Origin: Ferrimonas lipolytica
GTDB taxonomy: Bacteria; Pseudomonadota; Gammaproteobacteria; Enterobacterales; Shewanellaceae
Direction: 5' to 3'
DNA length: 64,000 bases
Assembly (NCBI RefSeq): GCF_012295575.1
Contig: NZ_CP051180.1
Coordinates: forward strand, 3,038,001-3,102,000
Part shown: positions 5,777-55,481 of the stretch, in pieces
Layout of the letters: each line of letters begins with the position of its first letter
Numbering within the stretch: position 1 is the first letter of the stretch
The notes under the pieces: model-generated
The model's database searches: none
What the model was told of the DNA's origin: nothing
The model's input: the letters and a program-made list of their open reading frames with translations, nothing else
Made by a program: the position numbers and the translations under genes

Positions 5777-6068
5777 GGCTGTGTACCAATTAAGTGTTGT
5801 TCTTTCTAATACAGTTAAAGCACCGGCTAGGCCAGCGTCGATACAAGGGGTTTAGCACTACCGCCGTTGACCTTCTGCCGCATTGGCGCAGTCCAGCGAA
5901 GCGCTTTGGACTGCGGCCTAAGGCAAGGGGGTTTCCAACGGGGGCGAAGCTCCCCGCTAATGCATACAAGAATGTGCCGTCGCCACCGCGACATTCTCCC
6001 CAAAAAGCACCGGGTTCGGTGAAGCCGAAGGCTTAAGATAAACTTCAACAGCTAACTACGACAGAGCC
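5777..6068 (+). mobile_element. MITE-like repeat, copy A
   Basis: This 292-bp element begins GGCTGTGTACCAA and ends with an imperfect inverted copy (ACAGAGCC). It is one of five related copies in the window. An internal hairpin at 5888-5914 has 8-bp arms GCAGTCCA/TGGACTGC, and a G/C-rich hairpin follows at 5941-5955. The flanks ataaaaag and taaaaaag are an imperfect 8-bp target duplication. The right flank is the A-tract of the tldD terminator. With copy C it forms a subfamily whose right end reads CAACAGCTAACTACGAC. Short ORFs inside are in different frames from copy to copy and are not genes. Confidence 0.85.
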
Positions 6069-6069
6069 T

Positions 6070-6099
6070 AAAAAAGCGAGCTCAGAGCTCGCTTTTTTA
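6070..6099. terminator. Bidirectional rho-independent terminator after tldD
   Basis: The stem GCGAGCTC/GAGCTCGC is flanked by AAAAAA on the left and TTTTTT on the right, so it can stop transcription in both directions. It lies 14 bases past the tldD stop and ends the mre-to-tldD group. Repeat copy A is inserted immediately beyond it. Confidence 0.88.
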
Positions 6100-6112
6100 T
6101 CGAATGGATAAG

Positions 6113-7561
6113 TTAAGCTGTGCCACCAACCGTTAAACGATCTAACTTTAAGCTTGGCTGGCCCACTCCCACTGGCACGCTTTGGCCCTCTTTGCCACAA
6201 ACCCCAACACCGTTGTCTAAGGCAAGATCGTTACCCACCATAGAGATGGTTTTCATCGCCTCAGGGCCATTGCCGATAAGGGTGGCACCTTTGACTGGGG
6301 TAGTAAGTTCCCCATTCTCAATTAGGTAGGCCTCGGAAGCCGAGAACACAAATTTACCGCTGGTAATATCAACCTGACCACCACCAAAGTTAGGGGCGTA
6401 GATCCCACGCTCTACCGAGGCAATAATGTCATTAGGGTTGTGTTCACCGGCCAGCATGTAAGTGTTGGTCATCCGTGGCATCGGCAGGTGTGCATAGGAC
6501 TCACGTCTACCGTTACCGGTTGGGTTAACACCCATCAAGCGGGCATTGAGCTTGTCCTGCATGTAACCCTTAAGGACACCATTTTCGATTAGCACATTGT
6601 ACTGACCTGGTGTGCCCTCATCGTCAACCGATAAGCTACCACGACGATCGGCCATGGTGCCGTCATCGACAATGGTACATAGCTCAGAGCAGACTTGCTC
6701 GCCGACACGTCCAGCAAACAACGACGAGCCTTTACGGTTGAAGTCACCTTCAAGGCCATGTCCTACCGCTTCATGCAGCAGTACACCGGGCCAACCAGAA
6801 CCCAATACCACTGGCATCTCACCGGCAGGTGCGTCAACGGCTTCTAAATTCACAGCCGCTTGGCGTACCGCTTCACGGCACAGCTCAAACGCTTTCAGCT
6901 TACCGTCGGTGCCAAGCTCTAATAGCGAGTCGTAACCGTAGCGACCACCCATACCAGCGGCGCCGCGTTCGCGTAGCTCACCTTCGGTCATGATAACCGA
7001 GCAGTTCAAACGCACCAGTGGGCGAATGTCAGTTGCAAGGGTACCGTCAGAGGCCGCTACCAAGATCTCTTCATAGACGCCGCTTAAGCTAACCACTACT
7101 TGGGTAACACGCTGATCGAGCTGACGGACGTAGCTGTCGAGTTCACGTAGCAGGTTTAGCTTGGCTTCGGCTGCCAACGCGTCGATGGGATCAGTTGGTT
7201 GATAACGCGCGGTCATCTGTTGCCGTGCTAAACCTTGCACCTTGCCGTTGGCACCTGCAACAGAGATCCCACGAGCGGCCTCTGCCGATTGTTTTAATGC
7301 CAATGGGCTGATCTCATCAGCGTAAGCGAAACCGGTTTTCTCACCACTGACCGCGCGCACGCCAAGTCCCTGCTCAATGTTAAAGCTACCCTCTTTAACG
7401 ATGCCATCTTCCAGCACCCAGGTTTCGTGCTTGCTGGCTTGCAGGTATACGTCTGAGTAATCCAACTTGTGGTGATGCATCTGCGCTAACGCCTGTTCTA
7501 GGCTGTCGCAGGTTAGATTGGCTGGAGTGAGTAGTGATGCAGCAACAGTATTAAAACTCAT
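6113..7561 (-). CDS. tldD: Metalloprotease TldD
   Basis: The protein has 482 residues, standard TldD length. It is the catalytic partner of PmbA/TldE in a cytoplasmic zinc protease that trims peptides fed through its barrel. The metal-binding HExxxH motif is visible as [18 protein letters not shown] at about residues 265-282. The N-terminal block [19 protein letters not shown] and C-terminal [20 protein letters not shown] are also family features. The ATG at 7561 overlaps the nit stop as ATGA, so the two are translationally coupled. It is the last gene of the group, followed by a strong terminator. Confidence 0.96.
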
Positions 7562-8388
7562 GAATCCTCTTTTATTCGCTCAACCGTCGCGACTCGACGG
7601 TGGTGCAGCACCGGCATATCAATGCGAAGCTGCGCAATATCTTGCAAGGGGAGCTCGGCACTAACCCAACCCTCACCCTGTGGTAATTGAGCGACAATCT
7701 GTCCCCATGGGTCCACAATCATTGATTGTCCCCAGGTTTGACGACCATCGCCATGGCAGCCCCATTGATTGGCGGCAACCATAAAAATCTGGTTTTCTAT
7801 CGCTCTGGCTCGCAACAGCGTTTGCCAATGGGCTGCGCCTGTTGTGGCAGTAAAGGCACTGGGTAACACCACCACATCAACCTGTTCTGCTGCCAGCTGC
7901 TGAAACAACAGCGGAAAACGAACATCGTAGCATACCGCCATGCCGATTCGACCGATTGCGGTATCGATTACCCGCAGGTATTGACCAGGGTGGGTATCAC
8001 GGCTCTCTTGGTAGCGGCTGCCATCATTCACTTCAGCATCAAACAGATGAACTTTATCGTAACGTGCCAAGCCCTGACCATTAGGGCCGAACAACCAGCT
8101 GCTAGCATAGGCGCGGCCATCCTCAGCTGAGACCGGCAATGTGCCGGCGACAAGGTAACAATGGTGTGTTTGCGCAAGCTGCGCCAACTGTAGTTGCCAA
8201 TAGCCGCCGTTACAGGGCTCGGCCTGTTGATTCCAGCGCGAACCTTGGCCGAAATGCAAACACGCCTCCGGTAACACCACTAAGGCGTTATGGCTGTCGC
8301 TCCCCAGTTGCTGCAGATACTGCTGGATCCGACTGAAGTTGTATTGCGGGCTGTGTTGGCTGGTTAGCTGCAGCAGGTGGCACTTCAT
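7558..8388 (-). CDS. Carbon-nitrogen hydrolase (Nit/omega-amidase-like)
   Basis: This 276-residue nitrilase-superfamily protein has the Glu-Lys-Cys triad visible as [11 protein letters not shown] (Glu), YDKVHLFD (Lys) and AVCYDVRFP (Cys). Orthologues between yhdP and tldD resemble Nit1/Nit2 enzymes, which hydrolyse deaminated glutathione or act as omega-amidases; the exact substrate is inferred. A strong Shine-Dalgarno AAGGAGAACG lies inside the yhdP reading frame and fits ATG 8388 (7-base gap) better than ATG 8391. The first about 100 bases therefore overlap the yhdP 3' end. The stop overlaps the tldD start. Confidence 0.88.
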
Positions 8389-11300
8389 CATCGTTCTCCT
8401 TGTGCTCCACCGTTGAGGGGCCATTGTCATTCGTGCCCAGCGATTGGCTTTCGCTGCTGGTTTCTGGGTCACGGATCTCAACTTCCCGCTTGAGTCGCTC
8501 AACCTCAATCAATTCGGGTTCATCCAATGTACCGGTTAAGTGATATTTTAGCTGGGTGACAACCTCAATCACCGGCTCTAGCAGCTTAGTCACCGCAAAC
8601 ACACTGAGGCCGATGGCTAAGGTGCCAGTACTGAGGTACATCACCGCCGGTACACTCGAAGCTAACGCCGGTGAAAAGCTAAGTTGATAGTCGAGCTCAC
8701 GGGTATGCAGGTTAGTCCAACCGTCGACCTTCAAAACCCCAGCACTGCCATCCATGCGGCCATCTTTGGTCGTTGCCACACCATCAGCCAAGCTGATGTT
8801 GCCGCCGAATTCGCTAAAATGCATGCCGCTACCAAACACATCAGAGAAATCCAAAGCCAGCTTGCGCGCCAGCGACTCTAGGCTGAATACCGATAACAAC
8901 CGAGCGCCCTTATCTGAGACTTGGCGCAACCGTCCTTCGGTCATCTTAAAAGCGACATTGCCATCCAGGTGAGTCAACTGCACCTGCCATGGTGCACCCT
9001 GCCAACTGAACTGAAAATCGACATTGGCTTTGGCGTCTTCAATCGATGGTTCAACCGCCATGTATTCGGTCATCTTATCGACTTTTTGGGAGTTCAGGTT
9101 ACCGCTAATACGGGTACGGGTGGTGTTGCCTTGAGCAAGCCAGATCCCTTGACCGCGCACTTTGTGCTTATCGTAACCAAACTCAAAGGTCTCTAATCGG
9201 TAATGTTCGTCTTCATGGTAACCAACCAACTTAGCCTGACCAAATCGCTTCGGCCCAACTCTAAAGTCATCAATATTGATGGTTAGTGCAGGCATGCTAT
9301 CAATATCTGCAGACGTTGCAGCAGCAAATAACGACGCTTCAATTGTATCAGTGCTCGCTTGTTTGGTTGGTGGCTCGGTTGGCAAGTTAGGTGGTAGTTG
9401 TTCCGCACCTGCTTGAACGAGTTCAGCAACGTAAAAGTGCGCCGCATCAACTTCAACCTTAAGCTGATCATTCTCTTCGCCAACATAAACGATGCTTTGG
9501 GTTCGATCGGTATCCAGCTGCAGCTTCCAGCCCGCGCCAGTTTGCGGCACAGCACTTATCTGGCCACTACCTAGCGGAATTTGATATAGCTGCAGCTGTT
9601 GCCCTTCCAGCACAACATTATCGATGCCCGCGAACCATCCGCGCGTGCTGCCATCTTTTTCATCCGCTGCAGCTGCATTGGTCGCAGTGGTGTCCGGAGC
9701 ATCCATTACGGATTTGCTACTAAAGCTATCGATTAACGGTAACCACGACTCCAGCAGCAGTTCATCGCCTATCCAGTGTACTTTGCCACCATGTTGTTGC
9801 GGTAGCAGCAATGGCGCTTCACCTAGCGCCAACAGATAGCGCTCAAACAGCGATGTGTTGTCAAACCCAAGCTCTCCAACCATACCAAACCCAGTGCCCA
9901 GCTCTAATTCCAGCTGTGCTTGTTTGCTGTCACCTTGAATTCGAAGCTGCAGCGGGCTTTCGCCGATAGCGTTCTTACCTAACGGCGCTGGCAGATCGAT
10001 GGCCATTCCCGCAAGGGTGGAATTCAACTCACCGGTATAGTGCAGTTGTTCATCTACCAGCAGATCAATCTCGCCACTGATGGCGGCGCCACCTTGGAAG
10101 AATGGGGTAAGGGGAGTATCCAGCTGCTCTGGCAAACGACTGACTTGCCAGTGGCTCGACAGATCAATATCAATGCCGTATCCCTGCTGCTGTGGTTCCG
10201 CCAAGATCGAAAGCTCCGTTGGCTGCGCCAGTAATTTGGTCATCAAGTTGTTGGCGCTGATGATATTGTTGTTGAAGCGGATCTCACCACGAACCTGCTC
10301 TAGCGGTAACTGCAATGGGGCGATATAGATATCATGATCCCACAAGGTGATAACACCATTCACTTGGTTCTGTAGGTGCTTAACTTGGCTACCAAGGTTG
10401 AAGCTCATATCTAGGCTTAATGGCAGTGCCTGCTGTGGCTGGATGATATCTAATGTGCCGCCAACCGAATCTTCGAGAAAAGTACCAGCTAGTACCGCTT
10501 GCACTTGATCAGGCTGCGCTGTTAACGCGCCGAGTATCTGCAACTGGCTTGCAGGACCAAGGGATGGAATGATGATATCGACATCGGCCACCGCAACCCC
10601 TGCCAGCAAAGCGCGCTCTACCAACAGATCCATCCGGGCATTTTCAAACCGAGCGTCGACATAACCCTCTTTGGCCGCTGGCCATTGTGGCAGATAGTTA
10701 AACTGCAATTGTTGCATGCTAAAGCCAGCAAGGAAGCGACCTTGCTGTTGCTGGTAGGGGTATTGATCAAGATCGCCATGCCAGATGAGGCGGCCATCAT
10801 CAAAATGGCCGTGCTGAATCGCTTTACCAAGATAATCGGCTAAGCTCTGCCCCATCACAGAGGGCAGGTAATGTTTAAGTTCAGAGGCTTGGGCTAACTG
10901 TAAGGTAGCTCCGAGCTGCAGTCGCGGTGATTGCTGTGGAGTAAATTGCAGTGCCGCTTGTGCATCAACGCTAACATCATCATTACCGATCTGCGCTTGG
11001 GTGACTCGCAATACACTGCCAAGCGATTGCGGAACCCATTGCAGATTGAGTTCTAGTGTTGGCAATTCAGCAACACTCGCAAGTTGACTTGGCCAATCGA
11101 CACTCAACTGGTCGCCGCTAATGCGGATATTGGCCCAGCCTGCTTGCCAATCAATCTGTCCAGACAAGCCATCGAACCCCGGCAGTTGTCCCTGTTGTTG
11201 CCAGCCTAAGCCATTAAAGCTCAGCTGGGCGAACCACCCTTCGTCACGGCGTTGCGCTACTAGCGGACCAATCTGCCCTTGCGCTTCACTGTTGGATAGT

Positions 11301-13905: not shown

Positions 13906-13923
13906 CAATTACGCCATTAATTC

Positions 13924-17008: not shown

Positions 17009-20000
17009 TTATGGCACACTTCGGCGGTAGATCACTCGATCATTGCCTCGATAACGGCCATAGGTGAGCGTTGCTTTAGGGTTGCACACAGTCGCGGTCG
17101 AACCGGCAAAACACTGGCGACCGATGTCGTCCTCACTGATAGGACGATCCCACCACCAACGCAAGTGAGGCAAGGTCGACTCTAATCGCTGCTCTAAGGT
17201 AACTACGCTCGCTTGCCCTAATGCAGAAGCATTTAACTCACTCAGTCCCGCACTCACGGTGCCACCACCAGAAATGGCAACCATGCTATTGGAAACCACA
17301 GCATCGCTAGAATCGATGACAGTACAGCTGTCTTCAACATTACGCTGATAACGCCCTGCGGTATTAAAATACTGCACTTCTGCGGGAATGGTTAACGCCT
17401 GGGTTTCAGTGCCGTATACCGACTGCAACTGAATGCGACCGTCTCGCCACTCGGTCCCCGTTATATTTGAGAAAACAACCGTTTGGCAACTGCCATTGGC
17501 ATCCGTTTTGACACAGATTGCATCTCTATCGGTAACCGAATCTGCATCGATCTCAAAACCTAAATTGGCATCAAATGGAATCACTGGCGTTGCTGCTCTG
17601 TCGTAGGTAACCGTTGTATCAATAAAATTCATCGTTTGCGATGAAGCAATTAAATTGTAATTGAGCTGCCGAGTTACCGCAGCTGAGGCTCCGGAATCAT
17701 AGACCGACACATCAACTGCATTATTAAATACCCAATAATCACCAGAGTAGTTTTCGGTTTCAGCATCATTACGGCTAAACCCTTCGATGGTTAACGATGG
17801 AGCTAAGCCTGATGCAAACCCCCGAGGTTGCCCCAAATAGCTCATGCTGCCACAAAATGGTTCTAATGCCGGTGAGTTTTGAGTAACCCTTAAGTAAGCT
17901 GGAGTAAAACGTCCAATGGGAAGGGTGTAATAACTTTCTTTGGCAATAGTGCCACTTAAGTAGCTGATGTCGGCACTTTGTTTTGGTTGCCAATTAAATA
18001 CGCCAACTTCGCTGCTAAATGCAGAAACCGTTACGCTACCATCGTTATCAATAGTGGCTTGTGTGAACGCTACGCTTTTCTCCCAGTTATTAGCCTTCCC
18101 CGGCAAAGGCGATAGCAACGACGAAGTGAAATCGATGCCATCATGACGGAAGTTCTTGGCAACACTGCCATTACGAGGGTCACCATCGGCGGAGCACTTA
18201 GCCGCTATATTTAACTCAAATGACTCACCCGCTTGTTTAAAAACATTACAGCTACTATCACCGTTTATACAATGCGCCTCAGCAGCGATTTCAAACCCAG
18301 CGGGCATAAAGTTCAAGGTGACATAACCATTGAGCTGTTGATTGACCCCTTGATTGGACTCTTGATAGTAGGCTCGAAGGTTGAGTTGGCCGACATCGGT
18401 ATACTTATAGTTTAAATTGGCAATACCATTGCTATCAAAAGAGACTAGTAGTGCTGTCCCTAAGGCCGGGTTACCTTGATATTCAGTTATTTCATTTGCC
18501 TGAATAGAAAACTCTGGATCACCTTTGCGGTTGATGGGAATAATTGGGTCAATTGTCCACAATACCGAGACACCCTGCTCACTAAAAAATGGCTCGCAGA
18601 CCTTTGAATCACTAGCACTGGTACGAACTGCTTTTAATTGCAAACCGTTATTTTGCGTTGCACACCCTTGCACATGACTTTGTGCCTGTAACGACCAACC
18701 ACTTTCAGCAAAGTTAATCACGCATGAATCATCACCTGCCCCAGTATTTACACAACTTACTTCAGCTGCATTTGTGGCCGTTAACCCAAGCGTAGTCGGC
18801 GCCGTCACTCCCCATAATGACTGTTCGGTTGCACCTGTGAAAGTTAGCAATTGTCCATCAACCCAACCGTCGTCAGGAACTAACGTTACTGTAGTGTCAC
18901 TCGTTAACAGTGAAGTGTAATCGGCGTCGGCAAAAGCTTCGATAGTAATCGATTCAGGTTCACAGGTTACACCTTCCCCATCGTGGGTAATCCGGTAATA
19001 GACTGCTCCGCTCTCCGGCTTATCGACCTCGATTGCCACATAAGCAATAGACTCAATCGTATGTTTACGATCTTGGGTTTCGTCAATAACAATCGAAAAT
19101 GAATCGGCGTTGTTTTGGCACAACCTAGCCCAACCACCTTGGCCACCATTTCGGCTCTGCTTAGAAGCAAAAACATAAGGGGCGGTGGAGAAATCGTTGG
19201 TGATGTAATCATCAACACTATTACATTGGTTACTTAAGCTTGAACCGCCACTCTGGAAATTGAAGGTACTGCCCGACTCGATTTTTAATCCACTATCCCC
19301 AAAGCTGACTTCGGCACTGCCGCCATCGGTATAGATCGCTAACCAACCAATGGTCTCTTCATTCGGGACACTGTAAACATCAACGTTACCATCCAAGGTT
19401 ATATAGCCTGGATTCCCATTACTGGGCCGACTAAAACTGGTAACAAACTCATTATTATTTTTGGTCTGCCGCTGGGTCAACATCACTGGAGTTTGTGGGA
19501 AATGGCCGCTGTCCCAATCGACAGCCTCATAATTGGCACTGGTATTAGAACCATTGTTTCGAACCAGCTTTTGGCTATTTAGTGTACCTGCCTGAAGCCA
19601 AACCTTGCTCTGCCCATTATCAGCTCGCAGTATGTGCTTACCTTGTGCTACCACCAAGTATGATAGTTTATCCATCGTTTCATCGGCATTGCCAGTAGGC
19701 GAGTCCTGCACCACAGTCGCTTCAGTGGTTGAAACTGACGTAACTAAAGCCGTTGCAGCATTGTCGGTAAAATCGTCGCCGAATTGGGGTCGATTGATGG
19801 TCGGCATCACCAACACTAAAGGTGGTGTTGTGTAAGTATTCTCAAACTTAATGGTGTGGCTGGTTTGAGCCCCTAATGAAAACTGTCCAACTTCGAGAAG
19901 TTGTTCGGGCTCTATTGGTTCCGGTTGGCAACTATATAAATCATCGCTTGGAACAATAGAAAAAAGGCTACTGTCCTGACTTTTTAAGTAAAAGGCATAC

Positions 20001-21196
20001 CCCTCGGAGTTGTACCACTCTTGATGTCTAAACTCTACCGGATGGTACCCTTCAGCTAGCCATATCTGCTGCTGCTCGTGGGCGTAACCTAACATCCCTG
20101 ATGTGCGGTAATCACCGGTAACAACGTCACCATCTATGAGTACTTCGATGGCATTGTTACCATCAACAGCAAAATCATAATAGCCGGCACTATCAATGTA
20201 TAAATACCCTTGAAATAGGCTCAAATAATCATCGTGGGGTATGGAGTCAAAATGAGGATTTATATTATATGCTTGCTCTTGGTAAAGACTCGACGTTATT
20301 GATTTTCCCAATAACTTATTAGGCACCGAATAATTGTTTACCAGAAGTTGATACTCTACCGCACCAGACGGAATATCTTCATAGCCTTCAGTATCGAAAG
20401 TGCTAAATATCAAACCTTGTTGAAGCGACTCTCCAGAATTACAAACAGGAATAGTAACGACCTCACATACATCACCAATACCATCAGAATCTCTATCTGA
20501 TTGATCGGCATTAGAGGTTGATGGGCAGTTGTCACATACATCCCCAATACCATCACCATCGCTGTCCAGTTGGTCGTCATTTGCGGTTAACGGGCAGTTA
20601 TCACACACATCACCAATACCATCAGCATCGCTGTCTAGTTGGTCGGTATTTGCGGTTAACGGGCAGTTATCACACACATCACCAATACCATCAGCATCGC
20701 TGTCTAGTTGGTCGGTATTTGCGGTTGACGGGCAGTTATCACACACATCACCAATACCATCAGCATCGCTGTCTAGTTGGTCGGTATTTGCGGTTGACGG
20801 GCAGTTATCACACACATCACCAATACCATCACCATCGCTGTCTAGTTGGTCGGTATTTGCGGTTAACGGACAGTTATCCAACTCATCAATGATACCGTCA
20901 CCATCAGTATCAGTGCGATCATCAGCAAATACACAGTTGTAAGTATCCGAGTCAAAATCTAATACTGGATCACGCACACAATATATCGGCTCAGGATTGG
21001 GGCATTCAACAACAATTCCGAACAAAGATGACTGGCATGAACGATATGTTGTTTTATTCTCACATTTTAGATTCGAGGAGTTACCGGCCCATTCGCAACT
21101 GCCCGGCTCATCGGCTTTTGCTGAAAAGGACAAAAATACAAGAGACAAAAAAACAAGTAACAGCCTCCAAGATCCCAATTCATAATGCTTAGTCAT
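17009..21196 (-). CDS. mshQ: MSHA pilus biogenesis protein MshQ
   Basis: This very large secreted protein (1395 residues) ends the msh operon. A signal peptide (LLLVFLSLVFLSFSAKA) is followed by a Cys-rich stretch and six 23-residue thrombospondin type 3 calcium-binding repeats (residues about 107-244, DNCPLTANTDQLDSDGDGIG). A PA14-like domain comes next (about 255-420, including YLYIDSAGYYDFAVDGNNAI), then a lectin-like region and a long C-terminal DUF6701 region typical of MshQ. The start overlaps the mshP stop by 8 bases. It is probably surface-exposed or tip-associated, as is inferred for MshQ elsewhere; the function is not settled. Base composition is more AT-rich than in mreBCD. Confidence 0.85.
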   Translation of the reverse strand: MTKHYELGSWRLLLVFLSLVFLSFSAKADEPGSCEWAGNSSNLKCENKTTYRSCQSSLFGIVVECPNPEPIYCVRDPVLDFDSDTYNCVFADDRTDTDGDGIIDELDNCPLTANTDQLDSDGDGIGDVCDNCPSTANTDQLDSDADGIGDVCDNCPSTANTDQLDSDADGIGDVCDNCPLTANTDQLDSDADGIGDVCDNCPLTANDDQLDSDGDGIGDVCDNCPSTSNADQSDRDSDGIGDVCEVVTIPVCNSGESLQQGLIFSTFDTEGYEDIPSGAVEYQLLVNNYSVPNKLLGKSITSSLYQEQAYNINPHFDSIPHDDYLSLFQGYLYIDSAGYYDFAVDGNNAIEVLIDGDVVTGDYRTSGMLGYAHEQQQIWLAEGYHPVEFRHQEWYNSEGYAFYLKSQDSSLFSIVPSDDLYSCQPEPIEPEQLLEVGQFSLGAQTSHTIKFENTYTTPPLVLVMPTINRPQFGDDFTDNAATALVTSVSTTEATVVQDSPTGNADETMDKLSYLVVAQGKHILRADNGQSKVWLQAGTLNSQKLVRNNGSNTSANYEAVDWDSGHFPQTPVMLTQRQTKNNNEFVTSFSRPSNGNPGYITLDGNVDVYSVPNEETIGWLAIYTDGGSAEVSFGDSGLKIESGSTFNFQSGGSSLSNQCNSVDDYITNDFSTAPYVFASKQSRNGGQGGWARLCQNNADSFSIVIDETQDRKHTIESIAYVAIEVDKPESGAVYYRITHDGEGVTCEPESITIEAFADADYTSLLTSDTTVTLVPDDGWVDGQLLTFTGATEQSLWGVTAPTTLGLTATNAAEVSCVNTGAGDDSCVINFAESGWSLQAQSHVQGCATQNNGLQLKAVRTSASDSKVCEPFFSEQGVSVLWTIDPIIPINRKGDPEFSIQANEITEYQGNPALGTALLVSFDSNGIANLNYKYTDVGQLNLRAYYQESNQGVNQQLNGYVTLNFMPAGFEIAAEAHCINGDSSCNVFKQAGESFELNIAAKCSADGDPRNGSVAKNFRHDGIDFTSSLLSPLPGKANNWEKSVAFTQATIDNDGSVTVSAFSSEVGVFNWQPKQSADISYLSGTIAKESYYTLPIGRFTPAYLRVTQNSPALEPFCGSMSYLGQPRGFASGLAPSLTIEGFSRNDAETENYSGDYWVFNNAVDVSVYDSGASAAVTRQLNYNLIASSQTMNFIDTTVTYDRAATPVIPFDANLGFEIDADSVTDRDAICVKTDANGSCQTVVFSNITGTEWRDGRIQLQSVYGTETQALTIPAEVQYFNTAGRYQRNVEDSCTVIDSSDAVVSNSMVAISGGGTVSAGLSELNASALGQASVVTLEQRLESTLPHLRWWWDRPISEDDIGRQCFAGSTATVCNPKATLTYGRYRGNDRVIYRRSVP
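20465..20878 (-). repeat. Six 69-bp tandem repeats in mshQ
   Basis: Six in-frame 69-bp units encode DNCPxTxNxDQxDxDxDGIGDVC. The four central units are nearly identical at the DNA level, so copy number can change by slippage or recombination without breaking the frame. These units give the protein a rod of calcium-binding TSP3 repeats. Confidence 0.9.
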
Positions 21197-37523: not shown

Positions 37524-37656
37524 CATGAGACCTCAAAGAGTGTAACCTCCTCAAGTATATTAGAAAAATCTAATTCTACATTGATAGATATCAAAGAAAC
37601 CACATTCATCGACCTGATGCGGTTGCTTTGATGCCGTCGGCTAAGCGTTATCTAAT

Positions 37657-37929
37657 AGCTGTGTCGCAGTTAAGTGTTGAGGTTTATATCAAGCCTTCGG
37701 CTCTACTGATTTCGGTACTGTTAGGCGACGGCACATTCTTGTATGTATTAGCGGGGAGCTTCGCCCCTTTGGAGTCTCCCTTGCCTTAGGTCGCAGTCCA
37801 GAACGCTTCGCTGGACTGCTCCAATGCGGCAGAAGAGCAACGGCGGCAGTGCTTTCCCCTTGTATCAAAACTCGCCTAACCGTTGCTTTAACAGCATTGG
37901 CAAGAACAACACTTAGTTGGTACACAGCC
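37657..37929 (-). mobile_element. MITE-like repeat, copy B (at the octaheme cytochrome stop codon)
   Basis: This 273-bp copy is in reverse orientation. Its ends are AGCTGTGT and ACACAGCC, flanked by a perfect 8-bp duplication TATCTAAT (37649-37656 and 37930-37937). The right-hand duplication carries the last codons of the octaheme cytochrome gene: the first base of the element completes a TAG stop. Removing the element and one duplication leaves ATT AGA TAA, so the original stop was TAA. The internal hairpin GCAGTCCA/TGGACTGC is kept. Confidence 0.9.
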
Positions 37930-39359
37930 TATCTAATAGCAGCAGCCTCTCGGTTTTTCATTGGGTCTGCAGGGAACCCAAGCGCCTGCCAGTCCATTCG
38001 GCCAGATTTTCCATGACAATCCATGCAACCTAAGCTTTGCTCTTTAGGTGCCACCATATGGTTTAATCGCCACCACATTTCGGTCTCAGCGAAGTCCAAC
38101 TTACCGCTGTAGCTTAGCCCTTTAGCTTGCATAACCACATGTTTGTCCATGCCTAGCTCAGCAGCAAGATCCCAATCAAAGGTGCTCCAAAAGCCATCTT
38201 TGCCGGTGGTCTGCGGCGGAATAAACACCCGATGTTTAACGTCATAAGGTTGACTGCCACGATGTACCTTAAAGGGATAAATTTTGGCACTAGAATCGTT
38301 GATGTCACCCAGTGGCCAGGCCAATTTAGTCACCGTTTCTGGAATCATCTGCTCTCCCGTAACGTAAGCGCCGGCCTTACCGTTGAACCAAGCGTATTCA
38401 GGCTCTACGTTTTGAGCAAAGGTAAAGTGACCCTTCTTCTTATTGAAACTGGCTTTGCCATACTTATCCTTAGGTGCTGGCAAGTCTTGGCCAGCAGTAG
38501 ACCAATCCCAGCTCATCTTGGTTGGTTCTATCTTGGCAAACGTTGGGATATGGCAAGTTTGACAAGCCACCGATGCAGTATGGTTATTAAGCTGTGCTTT
38601 TTCATGCGGTGCCGCATCATGGCAACTCTCACAACCTAAGGTACTGCTGCCTTTTGGTGACACCCCCATAGAGTGGCCAGGGATGTCATGCTTTTCGGTG
38701 ATATGGCAGGCCTGACATTGCATGTCGTTGCCATCAACGTCCATATGAACATCGGTATCGCGATCGGGATAGCCCATACTGGAATCCAGATCACCGTGTT
38801 TAATTGCATCACCACCGCCCCCAAAGAAGTGGCAACTGCCACAGTTATCACGGACAGGCTTACCCACGTTACGAGCAATCCGTTCCAACTTACCAATGGT
38901 GCTGGCTGTTGGCTCACCCGCTTGGCCACTTTTCACATAGCTGCCCGTGGTGTCATGGCATACTAAGCAGTCGATGTTGGTGGCATCTTTAAAATCAAAC
39001 TGATTGTCTTTCCAACCGTAGCCAGAGTGGCAACGGGTACAGCTTTGCTGATTGCCGCCACCAATGGCGATGCAGTAGTTGTTAATTGCAGTTTTCTTAC
39101 CGTGTTCAACCAACTTACCGTCAATCAATTGCTCTTTAGACCAGTTCCAATGCACGGTTTTCATTACATCGTGGGCCTGCTCTTCATGGCAAGCTAAACA
39201 GGTCTCGGTCACTTGTGAGCCGCTAGTAAAGGGGCCATGAATCATATCTTGGTGAGGCGTTTCGCCTAACGCCGGTAACCCAACTAACAGTGTTGATACC
39301 GCCAACGCGAGGTGTGATTTGCGCCAGCCGCGCACCACAGGTGAAAATCGAAGGGACAT
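37929..39359 (-). CDS. Octaheme cytochrome c, tetrathionate reductase (OTR) family
   Basis: This 476-residue periplasmic protein has a signal peptide (LALAVSTLLVGLPALG) and eight CxxCH heme sites at about residues 54, 107, 131, 173, 215, 243, 266 and 453. CHFFGGGGDAIKHGDLDSSM matches Shewanella OTR, where a Lys serves as the distal ligand of the active heme; the Lys in IKHGD is the likely counterpart. OTR reduces tetrathionate, nitrite and hydroxylamine in vitro. SD AAGGAG precedes the start. A stem-loop lies just upstream. The stop codon was rebuilt by repeat copy B. It follows a DUF3373 protein and a small cytochrome c, as in Shewanella. Confidence 0.93.
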   Translation of the reverse strand: MSLRFSPVVRGWRKSHLALAVSTLLVGLPALGETPHQDMIHGPFTSGSQVTETCLACHEEQAHDVMKTVHWNWSKEQLIDGKLVEHGKKTAINNYCIAIGGGNQQSCTRCHSGYGWKDNQFDFKDATNIDCLVCHDTTGSYVKSGQAGEPTASTIGKLERIARNVGKPVRDNCGSCHFFGGGGDAIKHGDLDSSMGYPDRDTDVHMDVDGNDMQCQACHITEKHDIPGHSMGVSPKGSSTLGCESCHDAAPHEKAQLNNHTASVACQTCHIPTFAKIEPTKMSWDWSTAGQDLPAPKDKYGKASFNKKKGHFTFAQNVEPEYAWFNGKAGAYVTGEQMIPETVTKLAWPLGDINDSSAKIYPFKVHRGSQPYDVKHRVFIPPQTTGKDGFWSTFDWDLAAELGMDKHVVMQAKGLSYSGKLDFAETEMWWRLNHMVAPKEQSLGCMDCHGKSGRMDWQALGFPADPMKNREAAAIR

Positions 39360-41470: not shown

Positions 41471-41756
41471 CATCTACTCCTGAAGGCTTTATCGGTGCCT
41501 TATGGCGACCTTCTAACCCAAAGGGTATTAGCAGAATCTTATATTTAGTAACGACGAATTCTTATACCCCCATTAGCGTCACTTAATATCGGCTCAGATA
41601 AGCCGATTGAACCCGACAAAATGAATTAAATTCGGATTAAATTGAATGGAATAGCACTGAATAGCGCTGCTTTCTAAAAAAAGATGATGAAATAGAGCGG
41701 CAATATATAGGCCAAATTTGTGAGCTTGATAACATCAACAACCGAGCGCAAAGAAG

Positions 41757-42047
41757 GGCTGTGTACCAATTAAGTGTTGTTCTTTCTAATACAGTTACAG
41801 CACCGGCTAGACTAGCGCCGATACAAGGGGTTAAGCACTACCGCCGTTGACCTTCTGCCGCATTGGAGCAGTCCAGCGAAGCGCTTAGGACTGCGACCTA
41901 AGGCAAGGGGGATTCCAAAGGGGGCGAAGCTCCCCTCTAATGCATACAAGAATGTGCCGTCGCCACCGCGACATCCTCCCCCAAAGCACCGAAATCGGTG
42001 AAGCCAAAGGCTTAAGATAAACTTCAACAGCTAACTACGACACCGCG
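41757..42047 (+). mobile_element. MITE-like repeat, copy C
   Basis: This 291-bp element starts GGCTGTGTACCAA and ends ACACCGCG. The flanks CAAAGAAG (41749-41756) and CAAAGATG (42048-42055) form an 8-bp duplication with one mismatch. It belongs to the same subfamily as copy A (right-end sequence CAACAGCTAACTACGAC). It lies downstream of ridA and upstream of the cytochrome c gene promoter side. Confidence 0.88.
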
Positions 42048-42173
42048 CAAAGATGGGGTTAAACAGGGCAGAGATTGAACGAAATGAGCCATCGCTATTA
42101 GCTTAAATTCGCTAGGGTAATTACCAATAACGCTCTGTCTAAATCGTTACCGGTAACTGGATAATCTAAGCGA

Positions 42174-42539
42174 TTAGGCTAAGTCTGTTTTGGTCACCGC
42201 CGCAACCACCGAGATCTCCACCAACAGCTCAGGCCTTGCCATCGCCGCTTGCACACAGGCGCGAGCTGGAGCATCGCCAGCTGGAATCCACGCATCCCAC
42301 ACTGCATTCATGGCGGCAAAATCACCCATCGTTTTTACATAAATGGTGGCCGACAACATGTCACTACGGCTAGAGCCGTAACGATTTAATAGTTCATCCA
42401 CCTTATCCAGCATGGTTTGCGTCTGTTCAGTAATATCTTTGCTGGCGTCGGCAGCCACTTGGCCACAAAGGTACAGGGTATTGTTGTGCACAACCGCACG
42501 ACTCATGCGCGGCTTGGTTTCATAACGTTCAATCATCAT
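42174..42539 (-). CDS. RidA-family deaminase
   Basis: This protein of about 121 residues is of the RidA/YjgF family, which hydrolyses reactive enamine/imine intermediates made by PLP enzymes. The catalytic Arg is present in [16 protein letters not shown]. The N-terminal block [20 protein letters not shown] and the [11 protein letters not shown] strand are typical of the RidA/Rid6 subgroup. ATG 42539 or 42536. It stands alone between two direct copies of the repeat, so its expression unit is isolated. Confidence 0.9.
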
Positions 42540-42714
42540 TGGTCTCAACGAATAGGGTTAATTGTGGGGGGAAAGATATTGATAGCAAGGATACCCCAAC
42601 CCAATTCATTTGTGGCAATGGTTCTGCGCCAGCGAGTTGAAACCACAACTATCCCAAATGGTTGCGCTTACCGTAGCAAAAAAAACTAACCTGATTTACC
42701 CCGCCATTATTAAT

Positions 42715-43008
42715 GGCTGTGCACCAACTAAGTGTTGTTCTTGCCAAGGCTGTTAAAGCACCGGCTAGGCGAGTATTGATACAAGGGGAAGGCACTACCG
42801 CAGTTGCTCTTGTGCCGCATTGGAGCAGTCCAGCGAAGCGTTTTGGACTGCGACCTAAGGCAAGGGGGGGATTCCAAAGGGGGCGAAGCTCCCCGCTAAT
42901 GCATACAAGAATGTGCCGTCGCCACCGCGACATAACCCCTTAAGAGTACTGCAACCGGCAGAGCCAAAGGCTTGATATAAACCTCAACACTTAACTGTGA
43001 CACCGTCG
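42715..43008 (+). mobile_element. MITE-like repeat, copy D
   Basis: This 294-bp element starts GGCTGTGCACCAA. The perfect 8-bp flanks TTATTAAT (42707-42714 and 43009-43016) form a duplication. The right end carries CAACACTTAACTGTGACAC, a close inverted copy of the left end, as in copies B and E. It lies between ridA and the TonB receptor and ends about 75 bases before the candidate Fur site. Confidence 0.88.
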
Positions 43009-43084
43009 TTATTAATCACTAGCACGCCAAGTGATTAATAATCAACACAATTACCTGCGTAAGATCACAAAACACAATCTAAAT

Positions 43085-43103
43085 GGTAATGATTTGCATC
43101 TGC
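43085..43103 (+). promoter_or_regulatory. Candidate Fur box upstream of the TonB receptor
   Basis: GGTAATGATTTGCATCTGC matches the 19-bp Fur consensus at about 12 positions, strongest in the left half (TAATGAT). It lies 100 bases before the receptor start, where repression by iron-loaded Fur is expected. Confidence 0.5.
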
Positions 43104-43202
43104 AATATTGATCGAAAAATGAATCTGGTTAAAGTGAGCGCAAGTTTGCTTAATCGTCTGGTTAAGCGCCGTAAATTTCGACTAAAAATGGATTGATGAC
43201 CG

Positions 43203-47820: not shown

Positions 47821-47836
47821 TCGAATTTAGCTGGGG

Positions 47837-47850
47837 CCCTGACAACAGGG
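47837..47850 (+). other. Intercistronic hairpin in the catabolic operon
   Basis: CCCTG and CAGGG pair around ACAA between the FAD oxidoreductase and the enolase-superfamily gene. It is short and has no T-tract; it may influence mRNA processing. Confidence 0.35.
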
Positions 47851-47879
47851 TCTCCGCCACAGACGTAGAGAGACCAATT

Positions 47880-49007: not shown

Positions 49008-49042
49008 GTTCGCTTTAGCACTACCACGACACCGACACCATC

Positions 49043-49071
49043 GCTCTCAGTTACGCTAACAGGCTGAGAGC
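49043..49071 (+). other. Hairpin before the BCCT gene
   Basis: GCTCTCAG and CTGAGAGC pair across 13 bases just upstream of the BCCT ribosome site (AGGAAT). It may modulate expression of the transporter relative to the enzymes upstream. Confidence 0.4.
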
Positions 49072-49085
49072 ATTAGGAATCCCAA

Positions 49086-50702: not shown

Positions 50703-50776
50703 GACGCGATGCACTAAACATAGGGGCTGGCAGCAATGTCAGCTCCAGCTTACTTACGATACAACGACTGTTCGCA

Positions 50777-51073
50777 ATGATTCCGTTTGAATTTGATTGG
50801 AAAACCATTATCAGCTTAATTGCCGTTACTGGTTACCTAGCGCCTTTTATTTTGTTGCAGACCGGGCGAATGGCTGCAGATAATCCGCTTTACTCGGTGT
50901 TGAATATCGTTGGTGCCGGGCTCATTTTGGTCACTATGACCTACCAATATAATTTAGCATCGCTACTCACCAATAGTGTCTGGCTAGTGTTCAGCCTATT
51001 TGGATTGCAGCGAACGCTTAAGGCTCGTGCCAAATCAAAGCGTACTGAAACGGCAGCGCAAAGCACGGCATAA
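50777..51073 (+). CDS. Small CBU_0592-like membrane protein
   Basis: This 98-residue protein has three hydrophobic segments (IISLIAVTGYLAPFILLQTG, YSVLNIVGAGLILVTMTYQY, LTNSVWLVFSLFGLQRTL) and a basic C-terminal tail. It resembles the CBU_0592 family of small membrane proteins, whose function is unknown. It follows the BCCT gene by 74 bases and may be co-transcribed. No clear ribosome site precedes the ATG. Confidence 0.7.
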   Translation: MIPFEFDWKTIISLIAVTGYLAPFILLQTGRMAADNPLYSVLNIVGAGLILVTMTYQYNLASLLTNSVWLVFSLFGLQRTLKARAKSKRTETAAQSTA

Positions 51074-51245
51074 GCCGCCAACCATTTTGTCAGCAGTGCT
51101 GGTGCCGGGTCGAACGGTACCGGCATTTTTATTCCAATGACGTTAATGCCTAGGTATTAGCTCACAAATGCACAACGCCATCAGAGCATAACCGCACGAC
51201 ATTGCGCTAAATCCTTACCGGTTCTGATAAACTCACAAGCTAGCT

Positions 51246-51260
51246 GACCACCATTTGGTC
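51246..51260. promoter_or_regulatory. Inverted repeat upstream of the GntR gene
   Basis: GACCA and TGGTC flank a 5-base spacer 46 bases before the GntR start. FadR-type (FCD) regulators often bind TGGT/ACCA-containing palindromes, so this may be an autoregulatory site. Confidence 0.35.
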
Positions 51261-51306
51261 GAACTATCAATTGCTACTGGCACCAACCTAACTGGATTGT
51301 TTCCCT

Positions 51307-51945
51307 GTGATAAAAGAGGCCTCCCAAACCGATTCCGCTTACCTAAAGCTGGAACAGATGATTATCTTCCAACAACTGCAACCGGGTGCTATGTATTCGG
51401 AAAAGCAGTTAGGTGAGATGGTAGAGGCCGGCCGTACACCGGTGCGTGAAGCCCTACAAAAGTTAGCCTGGGAACAACTAGTGATTATCCACCCACGGCG
51501 TGGTATCCAGATCCCAGAAGTTAAGGTTGAGAGTCAGCTTAAGCTGCTTGAGATCCGCCGAGCGCTGGAATCGTTGTGTGCCAACCTAGCCGCTGAGCGC
51601 GGCACCGAACAGCAAAAGCAACAGATGCTCGAGCTTGCCGATGCCATTCTTATTTGTGCCGATAACGGCGATGATCAACAGTTCTTTTTACTGTTGCGCC
51701 AAGTCCATGCGTTACTAATTGAAGCCTCTGGCAATGAATACATCCGCCAGGCTATGCTGCCACTGCAAGGGTTATCTCGCCGCTTCTGGTTTGCCTATAA
51801 AGGTACTGAAGGAGTGCATCCAGCTAAATTGCACGCTGAAGTAATGCGTGCCGTCGCCGCCGGTGATGTGCAGCAAGCCGAGCATGCCGCCAACCAAGTA
51901 ATCGACTACCTGCACCAGTTTGCTATCGCGCGACTAACTCGCTAG
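51307..51945 (+). CDS. GntR-family regulator (FadR/FCD subfamily)
   Basis: This 212-residue regulator has an N-terminal winged HTH (residues about 8-70; YSEKQLGEMVEAGRTPVREA is the DNA-recognition part) and a C-terminal all-helical FCD domain (VESQLKLLEIRRALESLCAN onward). FCD domains bind carboxylic acids with a metal held by His/Asp residues. It starts at GTG 51307 with weak Shine-Dalgarno. It ends the catabolic cluster and most likely controls it, responding to the substrate or an intermediate. Confidence 0.88.
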   Translation: MIKEASQTDSAYLKLEQMIIFQQLQPGAMYSEKQLGEMVEAGRTPVREALQKLAWEQLVIIHPRRGIQIPEVKVESQLKLLEIRRALESLCANLAAERGTEQQKQQMLELADAILICADNGDDQQFFLLLRQVHALLIEASGNEYIRQAMLPLQGLSRRFWFAYKGTEGVHPAKLHAEVMRAVAAGDVQQAEHAANQVIDYLHQFAIARLTR

Positions 51946-51980
51946 ACATAAGTGCCCCCGTAGGAAAATAACCACTCCAT

Positions 51981-52012
51981 AAAAAATGTCAGCCAGATTA
52001 ACTGGCTGACAT
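51981..52012 (-). terminator. Terminator between the GntR and tetraheme genes
   Basis: ATGTCAGCCAG and CTGGCTGACAT pair around ATTAA; a run of six A on the left gives a U-tract for the minus-strand tetraheme transcript. The stem may also end the convergent GntR transcript. Confidence 0.85.
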
Positions 52013-52052
52013 CTCAAGGCTTAAAGCCTCTGCCTACTGTTCAGCTCGACGA

Positions 52053-54164
52053 CTAATCGTTAGCGTGGCAAGTGACACAAGCATAAGGGTCTGGATATAC
52101 CGGATCGGTAGTCCAATCGCTATTGGTACGTACTTTCATATCATCTGGGTAATAGCCCCAGTAGCCCTGCCATGAAACCCCTTCCGTACCAGGATAAATA
52201 CTAAGATCCATCCAAGGAACAAGATCTTGCTGTAACTTCGCTTCTAGCGCAGCCACCGCATCGGCATCGTTACTATCAACATCAACTACCTCATAGGTGC
52301 GATTAGGGATAGTTGGTGTATTTCCACCTTCGTACATCTTGGTGATATAACTATTTATGGTGCCGTGCCCCGTTGGTTCGAAGTCTTCTGAGTGACACCA
52401 GAAACAGCGGCCGGTTTCACCATGGCCAGCAGGTGCGCCATTGCCGCCGTGACATTCGGCACATTGGAATGGTGCCACAACCAATTTGCTGCGATCGCTT
52501 TCTGGGTAGCTTTGCACACCTGTGTCTAATATCGAGACTGGCGTTGGGTTTACCCCTAAACCGTCGGCAATGTCGCCATCAACGTGAATCCCGTCCAAAG
52601 AGTGGCAGTTTCCACAATCAGCAACGCCCCAACCGAAATGCTGTTCATCCAATGGTTTAACGGCATCTTTGGTATCGTAGATTGGCCATTTTTCGTCGCC
52701 GGCCCAACGTTGAGATTCAGCTGGGGCGTACATACCATACATATTGATATGACCTACCCACATCATGTCACCTGGATAATTCATTACCCATACATCACCA
52801 AATATGTGCGCCTCTTGGTCAGCATACCAATCGGTGATGTCGGTTAATTCAGGATCACAGTCCTCAAACAGCGCTGCAATACCTACTTCATCAATAATGC
52901 CATCTGGATGATCTAAGCTGTTGTCACTCGGGTCATACGGGTTGGATTGACCGACGTGATCACAGTAGGTCGCCTGTGTAGACTCAACCGAGGTAAGCGC
53001 GCCGGTTGAATTATTCAACTCGGTTTGTTGGCTCACTAGGTATTTGGCAGCAAAGTCCGCCATAGCCCAACTCACTCCAGTGTTACCTCCGTAACCATGA
53101 ACACCGGAACCACGAACACCATTAATCTCATTTAGCAAAAAGTGTTGAATATCGACGCCTGATTCCAAAGTACCCCAGAAGCTATAACCGACATCGATAA
53201 GCCCCTGTTCACGCATACTCAATAGCACGTCGGCACGAGTGATCGCTTTGTCTTTCTTAAAAATATCTGGACGTAGATTGTGGCTGCGAGCTTCAACGTT
53301 TTGGAACATCAACATCTCGCCAGACATGGTTTCATCACCAAGGGTTTCGATCGGCGTCACGCTCACCATCGGCACCACAATCACGTCAGTATCGTCATCA
53401 TAGTACGAAGGTTTACTTGCAGCCTTCAACTCGGCCTGAAACTTATGAACTGACTGGCGACGTTTGGTCATCATCGGACTGTAAGAGCGGAAGTGGAGAC
53501 CAGAGTTTGGCTGTATCAATACCGTCTCTAGGCGCATATAGAGTGCTTCACCGGATGGCTCATAGAATAACTCTCGACGAAATTCACCGAAGTCGATCAT
53601 ATAGGTGGCATACCAGTTAGGATCGGCCTTAGAGTCTCCTTCATCGTCGAAATCACCGTCACCATTTTTATCGTAAGAGACCTCCCACAGGTAAGTCTTT
53701 AAACTGTCATCCCACTCGTAATCAACATGGAAGTCGGTGCGGGTTTGCGACAGATACATCAGCGCATCAGCGAACGTAATCTGATTATCATTAAACATTT
53801 CGCTAACGATATAAAGGCCGTCTTCAGCTTCAAGCGAAGCCGACTTAGCTTGCCGCAGCTTTTCCGGATCAATGGCGATACCATTTGCCGGAGTTTTACG
53901 CTGGAACTGATCCACCATGTCTTGCCGATCTAGTTGACCGTCTAAGTACGCGTATAAGGTGGTATTAAGTTCAAACTTAACGTCAGGGCCCCAAACATTT
54001 TCGAAAACGCCGGTGCCAGTGGCCGGCTCAGGCGTAGATTCCGGCGTGCTCGTTTCCGGCGGGTTAACTTCGGGGACGGAAACGGTTTTGTCATCGTCAT
54101 CATCGCTACAGCCAACCACCAATGAGCCGACTAATGCCGTCACTAATAGTAATTTTGCATTCAT
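52053..54164 (-). CDS. Tetraheme c-type cytochrome lipoprotein
   Basis: This 703-residue exported lipoprotein has a signal peptide with lipobox LVVGC, then an acidic DDDDD stretch and a Pro/Thr/Glu linker (residues about 25-50). A large N-terminal domain of about 430 residues has no heme sites and includes DYEWDDSLKTYLWEVSYDKN and an EF-like DKNGDGDFDDEGD segment. A C-terminal quarter carries four CxxCH sites (CGNCH, CAECH, CFWCH, CVTCH). Many Trp/Tyr/His residues surround the hemes. I do not recognise the N-terminal family. The neighbouring genes give no clear partner. It may be an outer-membrane or periplasmic electron carrier or an oxidoreductase. Confidence 0.82.
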   Translation of the reverse strand: MNAKLLLVTALVGSLVVGCSDDDDDKTVSVPEVNPPETSTPESTPEPATGTGVFENVWGPDVKFELNTTLYAYLDGQLDRQDMVDQFQRKTPANGIAIDPEKLRQAKSASLEAEDGLYIVSEMFNDNQITFADALMYLSQTRTDFHVDYEWDDSLKTYLWEVSYDKNGDGDFDDEGDSKADPNWYATYMIDFGEFRRELFYEPSGEALYMRLETVLIQPNSGLHFRSYSPMMTKRRQSVHKFQAELKAASKPSYYDDDTDVIVVPMVSVTPIETLGDETMSGEMLMFQNVEARSHNLRPDIFKKDKAITRADVLLSMREQGLIDVGYSFWGTLESGVDIQHFLLNEINGVRGSGVHGYGGNTGVSWAMADFAAKYLVSQQTELNNSTGALTSVESTQATYCDHVGQSNPYDPSDNSLDHPDGIIDEVGIAALFEDCDPELTDITDWYADQEAHIFGDVWVMNYPGDMMWVGHINMYGMYAPAESQRWAGDEKWPIYDTKDAVKPLDEQHFGWGVADCGNCHSLDGIHVDGDIADGLGVNPTPVSILDTGVQSYPESDRSKLVVAPFQCAECHGGNGAPAGHGETGRCFWCHSEDFEPTGHGTINSYITKMYEGGNTPTIPNRTYEVVDVDSNDADAVAALEAKLQQDLVPWMDLSIYPGTEGVSWQGYWGYYPDDMKVRTNSDWTTDPVYPDPYACVTCHAND

Positions 54165-54417
54165 CATTCATTCCTTATCAGCCCCCGAAAGTGGGTGCTT
54201 ACCGGAATAATGGGAGCAAACAAGTAAAGTTAGACTTCACTAAATCACACTACTTTTCTGATGATTCGCAAAAATGTGAGCCATTACCTAACTTTATTTC
54301 CACCAATAAATTAAAACCCTATTTACAGAATTAACAAAACAACAATACAAACATTCGTTTTTTCGACTCAGTAAAGCGTGGCTAAAAAGATAAATCGAAT
54401 CATTCGAGGTGTTAAAT

Positions 54418-55143
54418 ATGGATAACAAGGCCAAACAAAAGGTCAAACACTGCCAAAGTATTTTGAAAGCAACAACCAAGAAGTTAGCAGCTGAAGATAT
54501 CGTCTTTCACTTTGACTTTACTAACCCACAGGATTGGCTTGGAAGACGCTGGATGCATGGCGTAAAGTCGCGTTCATCTTTGATGTTTAGCTCAGAAAAA
54601 CTGAACCACCTAGTGACAAAAATGCGTAAAAGTATGGTCACAATGAACCCCGATATAATTAGGGCTACAAAGAATCCCGTTCATGTATGGTCACAGAATG
54701 AAACTTTATCAGCGAACAAATTTAAAACCGGACTGTTTAATGAATTAGGATACGAAAAACAAATATCGATTGGTTTTGATTCACCCAAGTTTAGTCAATT
54801 ACGAAGCTCATTCTGTGTCTTTTATGGTTCGGATTGTAATATGCCGGAAACGGAACGATTAGCGTTGTTGCAGAACTCAATGTTGGACTTAGAGCTATTG
54901 TCATCTCACCTTAGTATGTTAGGTGTTCTTAATAGCCCGGTTGAAGACTATGGCTTGTTAAAAGCACCAACAGTGGCCGTTATTCGTAACGTAGCGAAAG
55001 GATATTCTCGAAATCAATTATCTACAATCCACTCAATGTCAGCTCGTGGTATCGATTATCACATCGAAAAAGCCAGATTAACTCTCGGTGCCAACAATAG
55101 TGCGAGCTTGGTAGATAAAGCGCATGAAATGATGCTGATTTGA
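54418..55143 (+). CDS. LuxR-type transcriptional regulator (divergent, orphan)
   Basis: This 241-residue protein ends in a LuxR/FixJ-type HTH (about 180-240). VIRNVAKGYSRNQLSTIHSM, then SARGIDYHIEKARLTLGANN, keeps the pattern of Ala-x-Gly-x-Ser, Ser-x-x-x-Ile-x-x-His and Leu-Gly. The N-terminal half has the size and Trp/Tyr pattern of autoinducer-binding domains but is weakly conserved. No luxI-type synthase gene lies in the window. SD GAGG precedes ATG 54418 (GTG 54409 is an alternative). Its base composition is clearly more AT-rich than its neighbours, suggesting acquisition by transfer. Repeat copy E lies 47 bases downstream. Confidence 0.7.
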   Translation: MDNKAKQKVKHCQSILKATTKKLAAEDIVFHFDFTNPQDWLGRRWMHGVKSRSSLMFSSEKLNHLVTKMRKSMVTMNPDIIRATKNPVHVWSQNETLSANKFKTGLFNELGYEKQISIGFDSPKFSQLRSSFCVFYGSDCNMPETERLALLQNSMLDLELLSSHLSMLGVLNSPVEDYGLLKAPTVAVIRNVAKGYSRNQLSTIHSMSARGIDYHIEKARLTLGANNSASLVDKAHEMMLI

Positions 55144-55190
55144 CAGCATCAGCACTGCCCCCTCCAACGTCGATAATTTATTAAAGAAAA

Positions 55191-55481
55191 GGCTGTGTAC
55201 CAACTAAGTGTTGTTCTTTCCAATGCTGCTAAAGCACCGGCTAGGTGAGTGTTGATACAAAGGGTAAAGCACTACTGCCGTTGATCTGTTGCCGCATTGG
55301 AGCAGTCCAGCCAAGCGTTTTGGACTGCGAGCTAAGGCAAGGGGGATTCCAAAGGGAGCGAAGCTCACCCTAATGCATACAAGAATGTACCGTCGCCACC
55401 GCGACATAACCCCTTAAAAGCACCGCAATCGGTGACGCCGAAGGCTTGATAGAAACCTCAACACTTAACTGTGACACAGCC
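55191..55481 (+). mobile_element. MITE-like repeat, copy E
   Basis: This 291-bp copy shows the clearest ends: GGCTGTGT at the left and ACACAGCC at the right, with the inverted homology continuing over about 25 bases (TAAGTGTTG shared). The flanks AAAGAAAA (55183-55190 and 55482-55489) are a perfect 8-bp duplication. The right flank is the T-tract side of the ssb terminator. It belongs to the B/D/E subfamily. The 67-codon open frame inside it is not in the same frame as those in other copies. Confidence 0.92.

Follow-up and report, generated by a model that had tools for sequence, protein, structure and literature searches.

The IS1595 family of insertion sequences (ISs) comprises seven groups, ISSod11 among them, whose members, in the parts of the description cited here, usually generate 8-bp duplications and carry one transposase gene, with an N-terminal zinc finger in all groups but IS1016 (PMC8101967). 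Miniature inverted-repeat transposable elements (MITEs) such as Correia, QMITE2, Chunjie and MITEAba12 are short and non-coding, end in terminal repeats, are moved in trans, lie mostly between genes and include size variants and truncated copies, according to the sections cited (PMC10969869, PMC6382973). Here we analyse a repeat that occurs five times in a 64,000-bp window of the Ferrimonas lipolytica genome (positions 3038001–3102000 of the complete 4,133,133-bp chromosome). The UvrA protein encoded in the window has its best match, at 94%, in an uncultured Ferrimonas and the next, at 88%, in F. balearica, which puts the host close to Ferrimonas. The repeats form a family of short, non-autonomous transposons (MITEs), and we are confident in describing the element as a cassette of about 291 bp that is non-coding, has imperfect inverted-repeat ends and was probably moved in trans, by a DDE transposase of the IS1595 family, into A/T-rich 8-mers.

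The family adds an abundant member to a type of element already described. It is linked to IS1595 by its probable NF033547/PF12762 partner transposase, by 8-bp A/T-rich duplications and by GGCT-type ends, and it differs in lacking a gene and in having an interior unrelated to the IS. ISApl4, of the IS1016 group, likewise has A/T-rich 8-bp direct repeats, many non-coding insertions and GGGGCTGT-type ends, and reaches 39 copies in one genome; it differs in being an autonomous element of 712 bp, and the cited portion of its report mentions no terminator preference (PMC12561309). Correia, QMITE2, Chunjie and MITEAba12 differ in that other or unnamed transposases move them, and the copy numbers given in the same excerpts (Correia >120, QMITE2 78, MITEAba12 up to 22) are exceeded by the approximately 275 copies found here, for which we claim no record (PMC10969869, PMC6382973). 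As for placement, IS1595 copies are described, in the excerpt cited, as over-represented between tandem genes and as lying 500–550 bp from genes in Beta- and Gammaproteobacteria, which differs from the gene-3′-proximal sites of our MITE (PMC9208149). Group IIC introns insert at intrinsic terminators, a similar type of target; as far as the cited text goes, these are RNA-based retroelements with a different mechanism (PMC4424553). IS elements that target REP palindromes similarly prefer extragenic palindromic DNA as a harbour, except that, in the cited part, they belong to other families and use REP repeats rather than terminators (PMC1525189). Among the matches listed in our literature search, which left most subscription journals outside, no title dealt with terminator-targeting IS1595 elements, and the search found no paper joining Ferrimonas with a miniature inverted-repeat element.

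All five copies are present where the earlier note, made from the window's sequence, had placed them (Table 1), with GGCTGTGT-type inverted repeats at their ends and 8-bp flanking duplications, which are perfect for copies B, D and E, nearly so for C and "blurred", in the word of that note, for A. The large genome-wide number that it predicted from five copies per 64 kb is borne out as well. Since blastn with a single copy scored just 40 of 328 candidates, counting was done by pattern searches allowing up to 3 mismatches, with reversed patterns as control. We found 275 left ends (154 on the + strand, 121 on the − strand), 243 cores (143 +, 100 −) and 19 cores of a short form, and the reversed controls gave 0 matches in each case, which puts the repeat well outside what chance would produce. 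If all 275 copies were full length, they would occupy about 80 kb, or about 1.9% of the chromosome. The detailed sample consists of 213 distinct model hits among the matches listed, of which 139 are near full length and 126 have stricter ends (hereafter full copies); the other 87 of the 213, which are truncated, nested or rearranged, are excluded from the duplication and terminator counts. The full copies are 248–316 bp long (median 291 bp), and 91.6% of cells are paired between their first eight and last eight positions. As the earlier note had held, the copies have no reading frame in common: any fully open frame occurs in only 4 of the 126, and the longest run falls now in one, now in another of the six frames.

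The flanks of the full copies carry evidence of transposition. With the duplication register set at 8 bp, four bases beyond the model end, the two flanks match at 8/8 positions in 42 of 126 full copies and at ≥7/8 in 73, with a mean identity of 6.31/8, whereas left flanks compared with the right flanks of other copies give a mean of 3.24/8 and 0.4% perfect matches. Registers shifted by ≥2 bases yield no perfect duplications, and the flanks are unlike between full copies. The logo of the 73 sites with ≥7/8 is symmetric: an A/T-rich stretch of eight positions is framed on either side by G/C at outside positions two and three, a pattern that can be written SS-N-W8-N-SS. Furthermore, one MITE is nested in another at 1813168–1813708, with outer flanks matching at 7/8 and inner flanks at 6/8 by reading, and several further junctions recur after an 8-mer within the MITE that resembles ATTCCAAA and conforms to this target consensus.

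An IS1595-type partner bearing terminal repeats like those of the MITE, which the earlier note suggested might exist elsewhere, was found in decayed form in the host and intact in a relative. Our transposase search was aimed at the IS1595 type. In the host genome, PF12762 exceeds its cut-off at one place, with stops inside the match. This place is a decayed IS1595 element of 1029 bp with ends GGCTGTGTCTTAATTAGCTGTTG and GGCTGTGTTTGAGTTAACTGTTG, a 7/8 duplication and nine stops across the transposase match. A shorter remnant near 3.351 Mb (locus L295, 1293–1731) is a 439-bp internally deleted IS1595 element that keeps both ends and lacks transposase residues ~77–242, and its flanks do not match. 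A congener, G008, carries an intact 315-aa transposase in a 1023-bp element with an 8/8 duplication, whose DNA is 75% identical to the longer remnant. The protein scores 185.4 bits against NF033547 (IS1595 family transposase; cut-off 75) and 42.9 against PF12762 (cut-off 27). The right end of the MITE family consensus matches the left end of the G008 IS at 24/26 positions and the host IS at 22/26, and the IS1595 elements of both genomes have duplications of the MITE's length at A/T-rich sites. The MITE is thus of IS1595 type and was probably once moved by a transposase of this type that has since decayed in the host; its mobilisation by that enzyme we infer, because no intact copy was found in the genome.

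Comparison with relatives shows element-free sites. The earlier note had said that fixed syntenic positions without duplicated flanks in related genomes would speak against a transposable element. At site B, the insertion site of copy B, the element is absent from all eight congeners that hold the cytochrome gene there (58–64% identical), and G010 retains the same LysR-type neighbour; two further congeners searched at this site lack the cytochrome gene. These are orthologous sites without the element rather than alleles of one species. Site B was used; the gene left of copy E was not found in loci L032–L045, which had been searched for an empty site. By blastn over 60 genomes, sequence related to the MITE occurs only in the host genome and in G010, of the same genus. 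Outside the genus, none of 393 further genomes from the order contained the core motif, a sample that does not include G010, and the plasmid collection gave no MITE match. An end-pair scan of G010 requiring ≥6/8 flank identity returned five elements of 291–618 bp with the same type of ends and duplications of 8/8 (three) or 7/8 (two), and the host and G010 families have a common central module that is 73–82% identical in the listed matches of ≥65 bases, which could reflect constraint in a mobile lineage or template-driven hairpin correction. When 12 G010 stretches were compared with host stretches, eight gene matches passed the thresholds, and at two locus pairs an element occupies the corresponding intergenic region of both genomes. 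In one (L221/L279) the elements lie in opposite relative orientation, which makes them independent insertions. In the other, elements at L027 1504–1775 and L273 3241–3675 are oriented alike next to one gene's 3′ end (its protein is 96% identical between the species) and may be shared. Separately, G010 (L276 3535–3825, L271, L273, L278 and others) contains several size classes that share the central module, including arrays without ends.

Two other accounts of the repeat can be set against a MITE moved by an IS1595 transposase, and both appear very improbable to us. One holds that it is a structured RNA gene or a regulatory RNA under selection, with the inverted ends and the flanks incidental. 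The consensus does fold into several hairpins, whose helices we named by hand and whose pairing we compared with shuffles over the host copies. Stem H1 reads GCAGTCCA/TGGACTGC in the host copies and GGTGCCCA/TGGGCACC in G010 L276, three paired changes keeping the stem, and stem H4 (model 232–245) pairs in 88.1% of cases versus 85.0% in shuffles, with 40 double-changed cells versus 21.6, a figure reached by 0 of 400 shuffles. However, the H4 excess comes mostly from the single pair 232–245, for which 59 copies have C-G and 35 have T-A, a haplotype that distinguishes subfamilies of related copies; when the H4 partner is slid by +1 or +3 columns, double changes are in similar excess, so relatedness suffices to produce it. 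The earlier note had named a conserved RNA gene with covariation as a finding that would overturn its reading; we see five of the six stems at or near shuffle level and the sixth raised mostly by that one pair. In addition, there is no Rfam match in the window (gathering threshold) or in locus L186 (E up to 1), the interiors, at 9.5% from consensus, drift about as fast as the flanks, and the 8-bp duplications require transposition, which argues against an RNA gene. The other account assigns the movement to a different transposase family of equal duplication length. Several observations weigh against our reading and partly favour this one: the left end of the MITE matches the ends of the host and G008 ISs at just 16–18/26 positions, the interior of the MITE does not clearly match the IS, so that the MITE is no simple deletion derivative of it, and the host genome yielded two remnants and no intact IS1595 transposase. 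Also weighing against our reading is the L027/L273 pair, where the G010 units lack ends and either an insertion shared from long ago or two separate hits at a single gene end may be responsible. Against a mover from another family stand the close right-end matches to both IS1595 elements, together with the duplication length and A/T-rich sites that these share with the MITE. We retain a MITE of IS1595 type.

The copies appear to be old. They diverge from the consensus by 9.5% on average, and the closest pair among the 126 is 96.2% identical, with none at 97%. The mean duplication identity corresponds to approximately 10–11% divergence per arm, close to the value for the element itself, indicating that the interior drifts at about the rate of the flanks. 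We infer one or a few old bursts of spread, which ended when the transposase decayed, although duplication identity and copy divergence are not significantly correlated (rho −0.12, p 0.17), which speaks against this account. The decay of the transposase in the host and the insertion bias toward terminators described below go beyond what the earlier note had proposed.

Besides simple copies, we observed several rearranged forms. At L186 1547–2943 (chromosome 1003357–1004753), a tandem array of eight ~180-bp MITE core units without terminal repeats mixes long and short core forms and adjoins an open reading frame (ORF) that is rich in CxxCH motifs by eye. At L018 876–1781 (chromosome 909394–910299), three MITE units lie in tandem, with AACAAAAA as both outer flanks and TTTTATTT between units, as if arising from recombination between copies. 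Two mini-elements of ~100 bp at different sites (L175 1399–1499 and L199 3083–3183) have a nearly identical internal deletion (model 49 to 228).

The gene context of the insertions points to gene 3′ ends. For this analysis, empty sites were reconstructed by joining the flanks, and genes were taken as ORFs from a simple caller rather than from annotation. The 126 full copies comprise 48 in convergent, 59 in tandem and 15 in divergent contexts and four unclassified, at a median distance of 61 bp from gene 3′ ends and 223 bp from 5′ ends, and none of 123 joined sites yields an ORF of ≥150 aa across the site. Roughly one in two of these sites coincides with the T-tract belonging to a terminator-like hairpin. 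Specifically, a hairpin adjoins the duplicated 8-mer in 66 of 125 reconstructed sites, and 66 or 68 of 126 copies adjoin hairpins under two ways of taking the 8-mer. The signal is sharply positioned: of 125 sites, 54–66 score at offsets of −4 to +4 and 3–7 at ±10 to 15, and the 35 at each of the ±30 offsets are probably the opposite side of the same hairpins. Hairpin-adjoining copies are distributed as 35/48 convergent, 30/59 tandem and 2/15 divergent, and neither orientation of the MITE relative to the hairpin predominates (17 versus 15). Sequences that match the target consensus elsewhere served as controls and adjoin hairpins in 45 of 914 cases within genes, in 26 of 92 lying no more than 200 nt from the 3′ end of a gene and in 16 of 151 in other intergenic DNA. 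Against the gene-3′ control, 66 of 126 corresponds to an odds ratio of 2.8 (p 5e-4). The terminator excess thus arises in part from target-like DNA near gene ends, and in part is two- to threefold beyond that.

Two readings of this excess have to be weighed. This branch of IS1595 may have a true specificity for intrinsic terminators, recognising the junction of stem and T-tract and duplicating the T-tract, a proposal that we put forward tentatively; recognition would be through the DNA sequence or through a hairpin extruded by transcription. Alternatively, the association might be survivorship only, insertion being random among A/T-rich sites and other insertions having been lost, and this too we consider possible rather than probable. 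Survivorship draws on the 26 of 92 target-like gene-3′ sites that already adjoin hairpins and on the complete lack of ORF-interrupting insertions among the 123 joined sites. Terminator specificity is further weakened in that, when the comparison is restricted to the 73 best duplications, 32/73 versus 26/92 is borderline (p 0.049), and in that the decayed IS and the internally deleted copy of the host have no adjoining hairpins that score. On the other hand, survivorship does not readily account for the share over all full copies, for a signal that falls to its low level within 10–15 bp in the same intergenic spaces, or for the G008 IS, where of the four flanks free of a contig-end cut two adjoin hairpins and two do not. 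A terminator preference as a general IS1595 trait was considered and is unsupported: copies of another IS1595 type, in G036, adjoin a hairpin in 0 of 3 placeable cases (8 loci), L128, L130 and L142 have no abutting hairpins, and neither have the host remnants.

Copies at terminators do little visible harm. Insertion duplicates the 8-mer T-tract and leaves one copy of it next to the stem, so that the terminator of the upstream gene should survive; terminators would thus be hit often and yet accommodate the element harmlessly. Copy E illustrates this arrangement, its duplication being the T-tract (TTTTCTTT on the − strand) of the hairpin downstream of the SSB gene.

Table 1. Copies of the MITE and associated features in the window (window coordinates)
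Feature	Position	Strand	Remarks
MITE copy A	5777–6068	+	Flanks ATAAAAAG (5769–5776) / TAAAAAAG (6069–6076), 6/8 match
MITE copy B	37657–37929	−	Duplication TATCTAAT at 37649–37656 and 37930–37937, 8/8
MITE copy C	41757–42047	+	Flanks CAAAGAAG (41749–41756) / CAAAGATG (42048–42055), 7/8
MITE copy D	42715–43008	+	Duplication TTATTAAT at 42707–42714 and 43009–43016, 8/8
MITE copy E	55191–55481	+	Duplication AAAGAAAA at 55183–55190 and 55482–55489, 8/8
Copy E, left terminal inverted repeat	55191–55216	+	Family consensus GGCTGTGTACCAACTAAGTGTTGTTC
Copy E, right terminal inverted repeat	55456–55481	−	
Terminator-like hairpin (GCCCAGC..GCTGGGC)	55490–55506	−	Downstream of SSB gene 55547–56230 (−); adjoins copy E duplication
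Stop codon of cytochrome gene 37929–39359	37929–37931	−	TAG = duplication + first G of MITE B

The remaining features of the window are as follows. Copy D has one additional base at its right end. At site B, the flanks read TAA without the element and TAG with it, and by this reading of the sequence the cytochrome protein is unchanged. Copy B lies inside, and copy C beside, the segment 36624–41113 with genes for a LysR-type regulator, an MtrC/MtrF-like cytochrome and DUF3373, which we take to be possibly an extracellular electron transfer locus. Within 41600–43200, no consensus site was found that would indicate a promoter or terminator role of the MITE itself. At 20394–20945, a 69-bp tandem repeat (six overlapping 207-nt register copies) lies in the ORF at 17009–21196 (−), which carries TSP_3 and DUF6701 domains.

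The target preference of this family is worth testing, and the large set of insertions in one chromosome offers material for the study of target choice by a transposase; it also allows the ability of a DDE transposase to aim at terminators to be tested simply. For such genomes, the annotation of terminators and intergenic regions needs repeat masking. The family suggests how a bacterial MITE reaches hundreds of copies with little visible damage, since duplication restores its commonest target. If the specificity for terminators is true, the element would represent a DDE transposon whose own targeting provides it with a safe harbour at the ends of genes, which would explain its high copy number.

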